A DNA stretch of 15,129 nt from Lachnospiraceae bacterium (lineage in GTDB: Bacteria > Bacillota > Clostridia > Lachnospirales > Lachnospiraceae): positions 1 through 15,129 of the forward strand of contig JAGDAL010000300.1 in the NCBI GenBank assembly GCA_017959525.1. The letters are read 5' to 3'. Numbering within the stretch: the first letter of the stretch is position 1; every line of letters begins with the position of its first letter. Position numbers and translations under genes: made by a program. Positions 1,627 through 14,548 of this stretch are shown here, piece by piece. The notes under the pieces are model-generated. The model saw nothing but the letters and a program-made list of their open reading frames with translations. It made no database searches and was not told where the DNA came from.

Positions 1627-1750
1627 GGGTTTGCCCTTGCATCTTCCGGGGGATTTTGTAAAAGAATGGTCACTTCTTTTTTGGTGTATTTTCCACCCCA
1701 ATCGTAGTAAAATAGTACTATACACATAGGCACTGGGGGGTGCTTTTTAC
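1627..1750. other. Divergent intergenic region upstream of the cyclase gene
   Basis: This is the remaining gap between the ileS promoter and the cyclase gene. It holds a 7-bp inverted repeat (AAAAGAA at 1660-1666, TTCTTTT at 1674-1680). It also holds a 10-bp palindrome ATAGTACTAT (1712-1721) that contains a -10-like TACTAT; a second -10-like element, TAAAAT, lies at 1708-1713. I could not find a convincing -35 at normal spacing for either, so the promoter of the plus-strand gene is unassigned and may need an activator. Confidence 0.35.
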
Positions 1751-1758
1751 GGGGGAGG
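1751..1758 (+). promoter_or_regulatory. Ribosome binding site fixing the cyclase start
   Basis: GGGGGAGG ends 8 bases before the ATG at 1767. It excludes the longer in-frame reading from GTG at 1740, which would place this site inside the coding region. Starting at 1767 also puts the signal peptide (MNRKRQMGLLTAVF...) directly at the N terminus. Confidence 0.85.
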
Positions 1759-1766
1759 TTTTTACC

Positions 1767-3407
1767 ATGAATCGGAAAAGACAGATGGGATTATTGACAG
1801 CAGTATTCATGCTCTTTGTCGTTCTTTTTCCAAGCAGGGTTTCTGCAGCTTCTTCCTGGGGTACACCCTACCGCATTCTTGTGATTTGTTCTTATAATTA
1901 TTCTTTCCAGACGGTTCCCGAACATATCAATGGCTTAGTGAAGGGCTTAGGCGATCTTAATTACGAAATCAATTATGAGACCATGGACGCCAAAACCTAT
2001 TATCATACGTCGGATATTGCGCAGTTCTACAATTATCTCTCTTACAAGTTGCATCAGGTAGCCCCGTACGATTTGGTGGTCCTAATGGATGATACGGCTC
2101 TTCGATTCGGCATCAACTACCGTCAGCAGCTCTTTGACAATACCCCCATGGTATTCCTTGGCATCAACTCCATCTCCGATGCCACCACCGCATCTGCCTT
2201 AAATGATGTTACCGGTATTGCGGAGGTTTTGGATTACGAGAGTAATTATGAGCTTACGCAAAAAATGTTCCCGAAGCGAAATCACTTCGTGGTGCTCTGT
2301 GACTCTTCCAACACCAGCGCCGGCGAATACATTGAATTTTTAAAATTCACGGAGAATCATCCGGATTTGAACTATACCGTCATCAACGCTTCCTACTATT
2401 CCCGGGATGGCTTTGCCAGAGCGTTGCAGGAGGTTCCGACCAATGAGAGCGTCATGTTCTGCCTGGATTTTTCCACCGATGGGGAGGGCAATGTCTACAC
2501 CCCACTGGCGGGAGCAAAATTCATCACTGCCAATATGCCAAACGTTCCGGTCATTCGTCCTTCGGCGGCCATTAATTACGATGGTTTCCTGGGCGGTTAT
2601 TCCTACTCCTATGTAGACGCAGGCAAGCGGGCCGGCACCATGGCCAGAGCCATTCTGCAGGGTAGCGACCCGGATGATTTGATTTTTGTTACCACACCGC
2701 TTACCAAGCTGACCTTAGAACAAAGCGTGTTGGATACCTTTGGTATTAACTATACCCTGATTCCGGAGGGTGCTACGGTACTGAACGAGCGCACCACCTT
2801 GCGCACCATTTACCGGGATTACACGGTCATTACCAACCTGTTAATCCTGATTTTCCTCTTGCTGGCGGCCATTATCCTGCTGTTGGTATTCGCCAACGTA
2901 CGCCGTAACCAGCTCATCAATCAGGATTTCTTAACCAAGATGCCAAACCGTACCTACTTGAATCGCAAGATTCGTACGGCAAAAGAGAACCACGCCACCT
3001 ACGGCATTATTATGGTGGATTTGGACAATTTTAAAACCATCAACGATACCTTCGGCCATACTGCCGGAGATGAACTGCTGTTGGCATTTGCTACCCGTCT
3101 GAAATCCTTAAGCAATCGGGATGTGACCTTCGGCCGTATCGGTGGAGATGAGTTCATGGGCTTTATGCCGGCTCCAACCCACGAAAAAGCTGACACCATC
3201 TGCAGAGATATCGTGCAAACAATGTCAGCTCCATTTTCTTTATCCACCGGTGAAATTCAAATCACCGCCAGCATCGGATGCGCCATGTATCCACAGGACA
3301 CCGATGATGTGATGTTGGTCAGCCGCTTAGCCGACCAGGCCCTCTATGCCGTCAAGGAAAGCGGTAAGAACGACTACCGTTTATTCCGTGACACGTTGAA
3401 AGCCTAA
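1767..3407 (+). CDS. Membrane-anchored diguanylate cyclase with ABC substrate-binding-like sensor domain
   Basis: Predicted to make cyclic di-GMP from two GTP in response to an extracytoplasmic ligand. The 546-residue protein begins with a signal sequence or anchor (MNRKRQ, then a hydrophobic run, ending near VSA at about residues 25-27). An extracytoplasmic domain of about 320 residues resembles the ABC_sub_bind type of periplasmic-binding fold (RILVICSYNYSF near its start). One transmembrane helix lies at about 355-377 (NLLILIFLLLAAIILLLVF). A complete GGDEF domain follows, with DFLTKMPNR, DLDNFKTINDTFGH and an intact GGDEF active site at 459-463. I do not see the RxxD product-inhibition site at its usual place five residues before GGDEF. 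No EAL or HD-GYP domain is present. The 3' end overlaps the convergent sugar-binding gene by 27 bp. The ligand is unknown; the domain assignment is strong. Confidence 0.9.
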   Translation: MNRKRQMGLLTAVFMLFVVLFPSRVSAASSWGTPYRILVICSYNYSFQTVPEHINGLVKGLGDLNYEINYETMDAKTYYHTSDIAQFYNYLSYKLHQVAPYDLVVLMDDTALRFGINYRQQLFDNTPMVFLGINSISDATTASALNDVTGIAEVLDYESNYELTQKMFPKRNHFVVLCDSSNTSAGEYIEFLKFTENHPDLNYTVINASYYSRDGFARALQEVPTNESVMFCLDFSTDGEGNVYTPLAGAKFITANMPNVPVIRPSAAINYDGFLGGYSYSYVDAGKRAGTMARAILQGSDPDDLIFVTTPLTKLTLEQSVLDTFGINYTLIPEGATVLNERTTLRTIYRDYTVITNLLILIFLLLAAIILLLVFANVRRNQLINQDFLTKMPNRTYLNRKIRTAKENHATYGIIMVDLDNFKTINDTFGHTAGDELLLAFATRLKSLSNRDVTFGRIGGDEFMGFMPAPTHEKADTICRDIVQTMSAPFSLSTGEIQITASIGCAMYPQDTDDVMLVSRLADQALYAVKESGKNDYRLFRDTLKA

Positions 3408-4550
3408 ATCTCCATAGGTATAACTACCATATCGATCCACCAGAGTTTCTACGGCATTGTCTGCCGTTACCGTCTCCGGCTCCAACAGGAAGGAGGGTAC
3501 GCAGATGATGCCGTTGTCATATTCCGCCTCGTCATAGCGACAAGGGAACTCCATCCGTTTGGCTAAGGATGCATCCACACCCTCGCCGTTTAGAATGGCC
3601 TTGGTCAACTCTACCGCCATCAAAGCTTCCTGATTCAAATCCTTATAGACGGACATGGACTGCTTGCCTTCCATCATGGCATCCAGGTTCTTAATGTCAC
3701 AATCCTGACCGGTAATCACTACCGGTTCCTCTCTTTGATACTCCGCATCCAATGCCTGAATCACACCAAGGGCCGTAGAATCGTTGGCGCACAACACGCC
3801 GTGCAGCGTAATGGAGGATCCGTAATAGGCTCCTAGCAGAATCTCCATACGACTTCTGGCATTCTCTCCGGACCACTGGTCCGTCGACGTGGTAAAAAAG
3901 TCCTGCTGTCCCGAGAGAATCTGTACCTCACCGGAATCAATGTAAGGCTTTAACACATCATAGGCACCGCGGTAAAAATAATTCGCATTGTTATCTGCGG
4001 AATCACCGGAAACAAATTCAATGTGAAAGGTCTGATTGTACGGATGATCCAGATTCAGGGCATCCCGCATGTATTCGCCCTGCAGCTGTCCTACCCGGTA
4101 ATTGTCATAGGAAACATATGCCGCTACATATGGTGTATCCCGAATCAAACGATCGTAGGAAATCACCGGAATATTATTCTCTGCCGCCGTCCGCATCACA
4201 TGGGACAGTGCTTTGCCGTCCACGGCTGCAACACTCAATACATCCGCCTGATTCTCTATCATCCGATTGATGTTATCAATCTGCGTATCAATCAAATTGT
4301 CGGAGAAGTTCAGCTCCACTTCGTAGCCTTCGCTCTCCAAATGTTTCTTCAAAAATTCCCCATCGTGGTTCCATCGCTCCAGGGAACTGGACGGCATGCT
4401 AATACCGACCCGCAGTACCCCATCATCGGAATGATGGTCCTCCACCGTGATTGCCTGATTCTCTTCCAAATCCGCCGTCGGCGTATCCCCACTTGCACAT
4501 CCTACCAACAGGACGGCAGACATCAGGCACCACATCCATCTCTTTTTCAA
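3381..4550 (-). CDS. ChvE/XylF-like sugar-binding lipoprotein (orphan substrate-binding protein)
   Basis: A 389-residue extracytoplasmic binding protein of the type I periplasmic-binding fold, D-xylose/multiple-sugar branch. The start is TTG at 4550 with a GGTGAG site just upstream; this start keeps the KKR n-region of the signal peptide, which internal ATG codons would lose. A lipobox LVGC gives a lipid-modified Cys18. Family hallmarks are GISMPSSSLERW (about 49-60), DGKALSHVM, SYDRLIRDTPY, and GQDCDIKNLDAMMEGKQSM near the C-terminal third. These line up with XylF and ChvE ligand-site segments as I remember them. No ABC permease or ATPase gene is adjacent, so it may share a transporter encoded elsewhere or act as a sensor like ChvE. 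It is the last gene of the five-gene minus unit and overlaps the cyclase gene tail to tail. Specific sugar unknown. Confidence 0.9.
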   Translation of the reverse strand: MKKRWMWCLMSAVLLVGCASGDTPTADLEENQAITVEDHHSDDGVLRVGISMPSSSLERWNHDGEFLKKHLESEGYEVELNFSDNLIDTQIDNINRMIENQADVLSVAAVDGKALSHVMRTAAENNIPVISYDRLIRDTPYVAAYVSYDNYRVGQLQGEYMRDALNLDHPYNQTFHIEFVSGDSADNNANYFYRGAYDVLKPYIDSGEVQILSGQQDFFTTSTDQWSGENARSRMEILLGAYYGSSITLHGVLCANDSTALGVIQALDAEYQREEPVVITGQDCDIKNLDAMMEGKQSMSVYKDLNQEALMAVELTKAILNGEGVDASLAKRMEFPCRYDEAEYDNGIICVPSFLLEPETVTADNAVETLVDRYGSYTYGDLGFQRVTE

Positions 4551-7940: not shown

Positions 7941-7988
7941 TTAGTCATGCTTCGGAATCAACTTCTCAGTTCCACCCATGTAAGGCTG
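7941..7988 (-). other. Intact C-terminal tail codons of serS beyond an in-frame stop
   Basis: Directly after the serS TAA (7989-7991) the same frame stays open for 15 codons, reading QPYMGGTEKLIPKHD, and ends at TAA (7941-7943). Seryl-tRNA synthetases normally end in a segment of the form IP(E/K)xLxPYMGG, so these codons are the expected tail of the upstream gene. The second stop lies 8 bases before the terminator hairpin, the normal place for the gene end. One base change in a leucine TTA codon would produce the first stop. Confidence 0.85.
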
Positions 7989-9233
7989 TTATGCCTTCGG
8001 GATATTAACAGAGCCGTCTGCGTTCAAGCTGTTCTCCAAGAATGCGATGAGCATACGAGGAGGAGCAACTACGGTGTTGTTCAAGGTGTGAGCAAAATAC
8101 TTGTTGCCGTCTGCACCCTTCACACGAATCTTCAGACGTCTTGCCTGTGCATCTCCTAAGTTAGAGCAGCTTCCTACTTCGAAGTACTTCTGCTGTCTTG
8201 GGGACCATGCCTCAACGTCACAGGACTTCACCTTCAGATCTGCCAAGTCACCGGAGCAGCACTCTAAGGTACGTACTGGGATATCCAAGGAGCGGAACAA
8301 ATCTACGGTGTTCTGCCACAACTTGTCATACCAAACCTTAGACTCTTCCGGCTTACATACAACGATCATCTCCTGCTTCTCGAACTGATGGATACGATAT
8401 ACACCACGCTCTTCGATACCGTGTGCACCCTTCTCCTTACGGAAGCATGGAGAGTAGCTGGTTAAGGTATAAGGTAACTTCTCTTCGTCATTTACGGTAT
8501 CAATGAACTTACCAATCATGGAATGCTCGGAAGTACCGATGAGGTAGAGGTCCTCGCCCTCAATCTTGTACATCATGGCATCCATCTCATCGAAACTCAT
8601 AACGCCGGTTACGACATTGGAACGAATCATGAATGGTGGTACGCAATAGGTAAAACCACGATTGATCATGAAGTCTCTCGCATAAGAGATGACTGCGGAA
8701 TGAAGTCTTGCAATATCTCCCATTAAATAGTAGAAGCCGTTACCTGCAACCTTGCCGGCAGCATCCAAATCGATACCATCGAAACGATCCATAATATCGG
8801 TATGATACGGTACTTCAAAATCAGGAGTCAGCGGCTCGCCGAACTTCTCAATCTCTACGTTACAGGAATCATCCTTACCAATCGGAACACTTGGATCGAT
8901 GATGTTTGGAATGGTCATCATATCCTTGGTGATCTTCTCCTGCAATTCCTTCTCCTGCACTTCGAGCTCTGCAAGACGGTCTGCATTCTTGGTAACCTGA
9001 GCCTTTACAGCTTCGGCTTCCTCTCTCTTACCTTCCTTCATAAGTGCTCCGATTTCCTTGGATAACTTATTACGGGAAGCACGAAGATCGTCTGCCTCCT
9101 GCTGTGCTGCTCTGGCAGCCTTGTCTAACTCAATTACTTCGTCGACCAACGGAAGCTTGTGATCCTGGAACTTCTTCTTGATGTTCTCTTTTACTTCTTC
9201 CGGATGCTCTCTTAAGAACTTAATATCAATCAT
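7989..9233 (-). CDS. serS: Seryl-tRNA synthetase, with premature stop before the C-terminal tail
   Basis: Charges tRNA-Ser, and tRNA-Sec where present, with serine. The N-terminal tRNA-binding arm is visible as MIDIKFLREHPEEVKENIKKK followed by a long charged coiled coil (about 28-105). The class II catalytic core follows, with motif 2 as FRKEKGAHGIEERG...RIHQFEKQE (about 262-286) and motif 3 as HTLNNTVVAPPRMLIAFLEN (about 381-400). The motif 3 form differs from the common bacterial NGSGLAVGR version. ATG at 9233 has AAGGAG seven bases upstream. The frame stops after IPKA, giving 414 residues, whereas suppressing that stop would give 430, the usual family length. The gene follows glyA by 23 bases in the same operon and precedes the operon terminator. 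Confidence 0.96.
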   Translation of the reverse strand: MIDIKFLREHPEEVKENIKKKFQDHKLPLVDEVIELDKAARAAQQEADDLRASRNKLSKEIGALMKEGKREEAEAVKAQVTKNADRLAELEVQEKELQEKITKDMMTIPNIIDPSVPIGKDDSCNVEIEKFGEPLTPDFEVPYHTDIMDRFDGIDLDAAGKVAGNGFYYLMGDIARLHSAVISYARDFMINRGFTYCVPPFMIRSNVVTGVMSFDEMDAMMYKIEGEDLYLIGTSEHSMIGKFIDTVNDEEKLPYTLTSYSPCFRKEKGAHGIEERGVYRIHQFEKQEMIVVCKPEESKVWYDKLWQNTVDLFRSLDIPVRTLECCSGDLADLKVKSCDVEAWSPRQQKYFEVGSCSNLGDAQARRLKIRVKGADGNKYFAHTLNNTVVAPPRMLIAFLENSLNADGSVNIPKA

Positions 9234-12942: not shown

Positions 12943-14307
12943 CTATTCTGCGGTAGCCGCCTGAATCATAATTGCGCATTCAATACGCTTCTTCTGTAGT
13001 TCACACCCCAACGCATAGTTGCCGCGAATATCGCCGGTGAAGTTGTACGCATTGGCTGCGCATCCACCGCTGCAATAGAACTTCGCGAAACAGTCCTTAC
13101 ATGCCGGACGGGAGTAAACGTTGCACCCCTTAAACTGGGTCTGCATCTCGGTATTGGTAATACCGGTCCACACATCACCCATCTTGAATCCTTCGGTTCC
13201 AACGAACTGGTGGCAAGGATATAACTCACCGCTCGGTGTTACTGCCATGTACTCGGTTCCTGAACCGCAACCGCTTAAGCGCTTGTAAACACATGGTCCG
13301 CCTTCCAAATCAATCATGAAGTGGAAGAAAGTGAAATCCTTGTCGGTGCCGTGACGCTTCACCATCTCGGCAGCCAGCTTGTCGTACTCTTCGAAGAGCT
13401 TCGGCAGATCCTCTTCCTGTAATGCATAGTCATCGGTGGACTGTGCAACTACCGGCTCAACGGAAATCTGCTTGAATCCCAAGTCTGCCAAGTGAAGGAC
13501 ATCCTCGGAGAAGTCTAAGTTGTTGTGTGTAAAAGTACCTCTTGCATAGTACTTCTGCTGTCCACGACTCTCAGCGAACTTCTGGAATTTCGGAAGAACG
13601 ATGTCGTAGCTTCCGTCTCCACGCTGGAACGGACGCATCATATCGTGGATCTCCTTGCGGCCGTCAATACTTAAGACCACATTGTCCATCTCGCGGTTCG
13701 CGAACTCCATGATCTCGTCATTGAGTAACACGCCGTTGGTGGTTAAGGTAAAGCGGAAATGCTTGTCGTGGTTCTTCTCCAACTCACGACCGTAAGCAAC
13801 CAACTGCTTCACCACATCAAAATTCAGTAACGGTTCGCCGCCGAAGAAGTCGACTTCTAAGTTCCGGCGGTTACCGGAATTGGCAACCAAAAAGTCCAGC
13901 GCCTGCTTACCAACTTCGAAAGGCATCAGCTCTGCCTTCTTGCCGTGGTAGAGTCCCTCTTCCGCAAAGCAATACTTGCAGGAAAGGTTACATGCATGTG
14001 CGATGTGAAGACACAGAGCCTTCACTACCGTCGGGCGCTTGGTATAATCGATGACACGGTTCTCGTATTCATCCTTGGTGAAAAGGGAGCCCTCTTCCTT
14101 GAGCGATGTAATCTCATCATAGGCTTCCTCTAACTCCTCGCGGGAGATATTCGGATAGGTCTTCGCAACCTCTGCGATGACGCTCTCCTTATCATGATCC
14201 TCATAAAGAGCAATCATGTCATAACTTACTTCATCAACGACATGAATAGCTCCACTGTTGATATCCATGACGATGTTGTATCCATTGTTTTTGTACTGGT
14301 GAATCAA
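12943..14307 (-). CDS. scfB: Radical SAM/SPASM maturase of the SCIFF peptide
   Basis: Predicted to install thioether links from Cys sulfur to side-chain carbons in the SCIFF precursor, the ranthipeptide class of RiPP. Of the 454 residues, about 1-85 resemble the PqqD-like leader-recognition region. The radical SAM cluster motif is CNLSCKYC (Cys106, Cys110, Cys113). GGEPLLNF and a core barrel follow. The C-terminal SPASM region has GGPCVYKRLSGCGSG near 335-350 and CNVYSRPACKDC...CSGGC near 394-420, which would bind auxiliary iron-sulfur clusters. The start is TTG at 14307, with GAGAGG nine bases upstream and the next in-frame ATG well inside. It lies 97 bases after scfA, a gap holding a perfect hairpin. 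This family (TIGR03974) matches closely. Confidence 0.96.
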   Translation of the reverse strand: MIHQYKNNGYNIVMDINSGAIHVVDEVSYDMIALYEDHDKESVIAEVAKTYPNISREELEEAYDEITSLKEEGSLFTKDEYENRVIDYTKRPTVVKALCLHIAHACNLSCKYCFAEEGLYHGKKAELMPFEVGKQALDFLVANSGNRRNLEVDFFGGEPLLNFDVVKQLVAYGRELEKNHDKHFRFTLTTNGVLLNDEIMEFANREMDNVVLSIDGRKEIHDMMRPFQRGDGSYDIVLPKFQKFAESRGQQKYYARGTFTHNNLDFSEDVLHLADLGFKQISVEPVVAQSTDDYALQEEDLPKLFEEYDKLAAEMVKRHGTDKDFTFFHFMIDLEGGPCVYKRLSGCGSGTEYMAVTPSGELYPCHQFVGTEGFKMGDVWTGITNTEMQTQFKGCNVYSRPACKDCFAKFYCSGGCAANAYNFTGDIRGNYALGCELQKKRIECAIMIQAATAE

Positions 14308-14404: not shown

Positions 14405-14548
14405 TTATTTGTTGTTCTCACAGCTCTGGTTACCAACAGTACAAGAAGTCTTGCATGCAGACTGGCAAGAAGTCTGGCACTCACCGCAGCCACCCTTCTT
14501 AACAGTGTTCTGAAGTCTCTTTGTGTTTAAAGTCTTAACGTGCTTCAT
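14405..14548 (-). CDS. scfA: SCIFF six-cysteine ranthipeptide precursor
   Basis: A 47-residue peptide, too short for many gene callers. It starts MKHVKTLNTKRL and has the leader ending KKGG. The Cys-rich core is CGECQTSCQSACKTSC, then TVGNQSCENNK. The six Cys are at 21, 24, 28, 32, 36 and 43, each set near Thr, Ser or Ala residues available for cross-linking. This matches the SCIFF family (TIGR03973, six cysteines in forty-five residues) almost residue for residue. ATG at 14548 has AAGGAG (14557-14562) eight bases upstream. The adjacent scfB encodes its modifying enzyme. It is the first gene of the operon, behind an extended -10 promoter. Related ranthipeptides have been linked to population-density signalling in clostridia; whether that applies here cannot be told from the sequence. 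Confidence 0.97.
   Translation of the reverse strand: MKHVKTLNTKRLQNTVKKGGCGECQTSCQSACKTSCTVGNQSCENNK

Follow-up and report, generated by a model that had tools for sequence, protein, structure and literature searches.

An early stop codon ahead of the conserved C-terminal tail of serS in a Lachnospiraceae draft genome, a probable sequence artefact

The serS locus

The window, by which is meant the whole stretch of 15,129 nucleotides analysed here, carries a SerRS gene, serS, on its minus strand, with glyA upstream and an alpha/beta hydrolase gene downstream. As assembled, the gene and its 3' end comprise the following features.

9233-7989, minus strand: serS as assembled, 414 amino acids, closing with NIPKA-TAA (open reading frame and TIGR00414 match)
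7991-7989, minus strand: early TAA at codon 415, a leucine codon in the compared relatives
7988-7944, minus strand: 15 in-frame codons past the early stop, QPYMGGTEKLIPKHD, matching the conserved SerRS C-terminal tail at the ends of relatives
7943-7941, minus strand: second TAA in the same frame, coinciding with the end of serS in G002, the nearest relative
7936-7909, minus strand: terminator-like stem-loop (12 pairs, including 6 G-C) with a run of T after it

The encoded protein is a clear bacterial SerRS, scoring 407.1 bits on the TIGR00414 profile against a cut-off of 301.65, with residues 1-414 lying on profile positions 1-413 of 418. The LxPYMGG-type C-terminal segment, a feature of the compared relatives rather than a formal criterion of TIGR00414, is encoded as well, but behind the early TAA and so outside the reading frame. 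An earlier note on this DNA had described exactly this arrangement, IPKA, TAA, the tail codons and then a second TAA, and both stops are confirmed at their positions, as is the C that directly follows the first of them. The same note placed the second TAA before a terminator, which is correct, and gave the distance as eight bases, which is slightly off: the terminator-like stem begins 4 bases past that TAA and its GAGCC part 7 bases past. Two such sites, one per strand, occur in a 201-base region for which 0.1 would be expected.

The window corresponds to contig C286 of a draft genome (G000) that totals 1.74 Mb over 370 contigs, with a completeness of 70.84% and a contamination of 3.14%, and is inferred to be a metagenome bin. 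Across its whole length it is collinear with contig C10 of G002 (15,127 bases, 87% nucleotide identity), and this full-length collinearity rules out the window as a stray pseudogene or foreign piece. A search of the 71%-complete draft for serS returned a single match; the second copy that the earlier note had raised was not found there.

Other genes of the window include one for a SCIFF peptide maturase (12943-14307, minus strand; TIGR03974, 788.6 bits) with a 47-codon Cys-rich open reading frame upstream of it (14405-14548, minus strand), which resembles the usual SCIFF precursor peptide and would form, with the maturase gene, an ordinary pair. A GGDEF diguanylate cyclase gene (1740-3407, plus strand) converges on a ChvE-like sugar-binding protein gene (3381-4550, minus strand; below the family cut-off), the two overlapping at their ends.

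The C-terminus of SerRS in relatives

The comparison drew on 109 relative serS loci, made up of the best 80 of 586 confirmed contig stretches and those 29 of 36 non-self genome match rows that were given a locus. All except L025, which ends at residue 221, contain the C-terminus, and at least three pairs with identical ends (L004/L037, L005/L040 and L013/L071) look like one genome represented twice, so that the 108 informative loci stand for somewhat fewer independent genomes. At the position of the early stop, every one of the 108 has a leucine codon and runs on for 10-22 residues to a stop of its own; none stops at the codon used in the window. That the stop replaces a leucine codon, as the earlier note supposed, is thus borne out across the loci. 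The alignment with close relatives that the note proposed gives the same answer within the genus, in other species rather than in the same one: G002 and G003, whose serS genes are 98% and 97% identical in amino acids over 414 residues, are both uninterrupted and show a sense codon, while the genome search of G001, also of this genus, returned no serS match. G003 additionally carries a second serS on contig C102, 81% identical, possibly contamination of G003.

Protein sequences lead to the same picture. In a database clustered at 90%, the best 120 of 7991 scored proteins comprise 118 with leucine at the stop position, one with valine and one with tryptophan. The argument built on the tail would fall, by the note's own reckoning, if relatives all ended at IPKA; none does, either in the 108 loci or among these best 120 proteins. 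L415, P417, Y418, M419, G420 and G421 each reach a conservation of 90% or more across an alignment of 22 proteins, a set in which the window's own sequence is included as a gap. Because the codons behind the early TAA match the C-terminus of relatives and leucine stands in the stop's place in 108 of 108 loci, the tail, judged by alignment, is the normal SerRS C-terminus, a resemblance beyond chance; the identification of the lost segment in the earlier note was correct. Two proteins of the search, P0059 and P0060, end right after ALQP or ALQPS and have no YMGG tail, and these may be contig ends or true early stops; P0059 represents 7 contigs, the longest of 2425 bases.

Constraint on the gene and its tail

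Codon differences in the body of serS are mostly silent, 62 synonymous and 8 nonsynonymous against G002 and 110 and 12 against G003, and Ser402 is the sole body residue to depart from a position otherwise invariant among seven comparison sequences. By these counts the body is under normal constraint and the gene is not decaying. Within the 15 tail codons there are 3 synonymous differences and 1 nonsynonymous one (Asp/Glu) against G002, and 7 synonymous and 3 nonsynonymous ones against G003, the latter figure counting G003's own stop, which lies one codon earlier. The tail is therefore undecayed, and the stop is either very recent or not real, in keeping with the note's contention that an intact tail argues against long-standing loss.

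A very recent stop could be a genuine nonsense mutation. SerRS would then end at residue 414, and the enzyme lacking its last 16 residues would either function well enough or function poorly in a failing strain. The undecayed tail fits such an event, as does the small extent of the loss, just 16 of 430 residues, the remainder matching TIGR00414 at 407 bits. Real serS mutations can also be selected: a 2026 paper reports them in evolved E. coli persisters (PMC12758526). Against a nonsense mutation stand the lack of any stop at this codon in the 108 relative loci and the strong conservation of six of the residues that would be lost, and structural comparison weighs on the same side. Truncation at 414 removes the last 16 of the nearest relative's 430 residues, whereas in 29 of 29 distinct sequences of solved SerRS matched by the close relative P0001 the alignment reaches query residue 420 or beyond. 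An AlphaFold model of P0001, weak overall (mean pLDDT 66.5, pTM 0.51), is in the confident range over its last 29 residues (block means 86-90), and in this confident region a helix of residues 413-419 spans the point at which the window's protein would be cut. Since the tail is conserved, is reached by the alignments of solved SerRS and has a predicted helix across the cut, its loss should come at a cost to a single-copy essential enzyme; on the model, a true loss would probably cost SerRS stability. Taken with the stops in other genes described below, these observations make a real nonsense mutation unlikely, if still the next most likely account after sequence error.

A real stop might alternatively be leaky, with UAA followed by C sometimes read through to give both a short and a full-length SerRS. 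The intact frame and tail and the C after the stop fit such a signal. However, its absence from all 108 relative loci leaves no conserved programmed signal, and a newly arisen one would be indistinguishable by sequence from a plain nonsense change. UAA is recognised by both release factors, which also counts against leakiness, and neither the 13 tRNA matches of the draft nor the 30 typed tRNAs of G002 include a suppressor-like one. A leaky stop is accordingly very improbable. Its more elaborate form, in which a genuine stop has become fixed in the species and leaky UAA-C would give a short major and a full-length minor SerRS, coupling activity to termination efficiency, is exceedingly so.

Isolated stops elsewhere in the draft genome

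The frequency of comparable stops was estimated by a two-way comparison of open reading frames between the draft, sampled as 60 contigs besides the window (320 kb in all), and 1.51 Mb of G002. At 75% identity or above, 127 G002 frames were matched in the draft, and 118 of these show at third positions the pattern typical of real genes and are termed sense-looking. Before filtering, 11 rows had an in-frame stop in the draft; three (L147_240, L258_308 and L261_6669) are not in the sense-looking set, leaving 8 of 118. Four of the eight (L111_11321, L147_10043, L148_10678 and L258_12047) were set aside as start-site differences, their stops lying within the first 21 codons. The other four are isolated and internal.

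serS (window): TAA, codon 415 of 430
Type IIA topoisomerase subunit A gene (L190, draft contig C118, near 4599): TAG, codon 152 of 746
GlgD-like gene (L210, draft contig C250, near 4218): TAA, codon 213 of 372
galM-like gene (L157, draft contig C30, near 5024): TAG, codon 200 of 335

The stops in the GlgD-like and galM-like genes lie 113 and 245 bases, respectively, from the ends of their own contigs. Type IIA topoisomerase subunit A is normally essential. No stop interrupts its gene in G001, G002 or G003, and the draft also has, elsewhere, an uninterrupted paralogue of 40% identity. That other conserved genes of the draft carry the same kind of stop, and that the one in the topoisomerase would hardly be tolerable, is a further point against a nonsense mutation in serS.

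The opposite comparison gave 100 sense-looking rows, 7 of which have a stop in G002, none of them a clear isolated case; three of ten rows before filtering (L164, L166_2853 and L188) had been left out or are not sense-looking. Three of the seven lie opposite longer frames (L167, L195 and L206_176) and two at starts (L189 and L206_3993); in L207 the stop lies 3 codons short of the end, and L166_1463 has a doubtful TGA at codon 31 of 347. The difference between 4 of 118 in the draft and 0 of 100 in G002 is not significant (one-sided Fisher p = 0.08, or 0.24 counting the doubtful stop at codon 31). With the window left out, the 116 matched frames, sense-looking or not, amount to 38,474 aligned codons and contain 3 stops. 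From this a gene as long as serS has a predicted probability of 3.3% of carrying a stop (0.7-9.3%), and about 38 such stops are predicted across the draft (8-112) if 85% of it is coding. At that predicted rate, one stop in an essential gene is unremarkable.

Scans of the draft for three domain families found no stop among the matches listed (26 of 52 for PF00005, 9 of 9 for PF00009 and 7 of 7 for PF00133), although at some 6,300 codons they are underpowered, with about half an event expected. A frameshift-prone assembly was rejected as a cause: no clear frameshift appeared, the two rows in each direction touching only the first 17-30 residues of a frame or its last 14, and any error process would therefore be substitutional. 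Outside the draft, L049 (CASUON010000142.1), from another uncultured Lachnospiraceae draft, has a TAG at codon 301 of serS with the frame intact behind it. It is the one locus with an internal stop among the 107 relative serS loci of full length. Isolated stops, as read from these assemblies, do occur in public drafts.

The four stops of the draft could share a biological cause if a suppressor tRNA lets the lineage translate UAA and UAG as sense codons. They are two TAA and two TAG, with no TGA, and a single ochre suppressor could read that pair; a set of four stops without TGA is, however, expected by chance with probability 0.41. No tRNA with a UAA- or UAG-reading anticodon was seen among the 13 matches of the draft, an incomplete set compared with 47 in G002, or among the 30 of those 47 that were typed, in 1.51 Mb of G002. 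Suppression of all four stops by such a tRNA is extremely doubtful.

Origin and significance of the early stop

Of the three options that the earlier note left open, a recent nonsense change, an error and a leaky stop yielding two forms of the enzyme, sequence error is favoured because other conserved genes of the draft contain a further three isolated stops; for the two-form enzyme no positive evidence emerged. The early TAA is most likely a single-base error in the consensus of a fragmentary draft genome, or a base of a minority strain adopted there, with SerRS full-length in life. A wrong or minority-strain base entering the consensus would create the TAA at the leucine codon, and the living population would make an ordinary SerRS of about 429-430 residues. 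We infer that the other isolated stops in the draft are likewise errors and not real mutations. Several points count against the error reading: the contrast with G002 is weak, the three domain-family scans of the draft, though underpowered, showed no stop in the matches listed, no clear frameshift appeared, and a stop this near the end of a gene lies where a real mutation is best tolerated. Among the literature matches listed for SerRS truncation, premature stops in SerRS and readthrough, nothing on this case was noticed, and draft-genome errors gave no match. A reading of the stop as new biology lacks support, and it should for now be regarded as a probable sequence artefact.

Should the stop be an error, the lesson is one of caution: before any biological meaning is given to a lone stop in an essential gene of a draft, the base rate of such stops should be checked by comparison with a sister genome. 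If it is real, the highly conserved C-terminal tail of SerRS would be dispensable, or made conditionally.

Comparison with known systems

The early stop in serS resembles the isolated false stops of draft genomes in consisting of one stop codon with an intact frame behind it and relatives that are unaffected. The likeness extends to the company it keeps, since unrelated conserved genes of the same draft have similar stops, as does serS of L049. As a protein, the product of the window is like bacterial SerRS of family TIGR00414 in matching over the whole frame, in its 98% amino acid identity to G002 over 414 residues and in the adjoining glyA. It differs from them in one respect, which is that its frame closes before the last 16 residues of its nearest relative.
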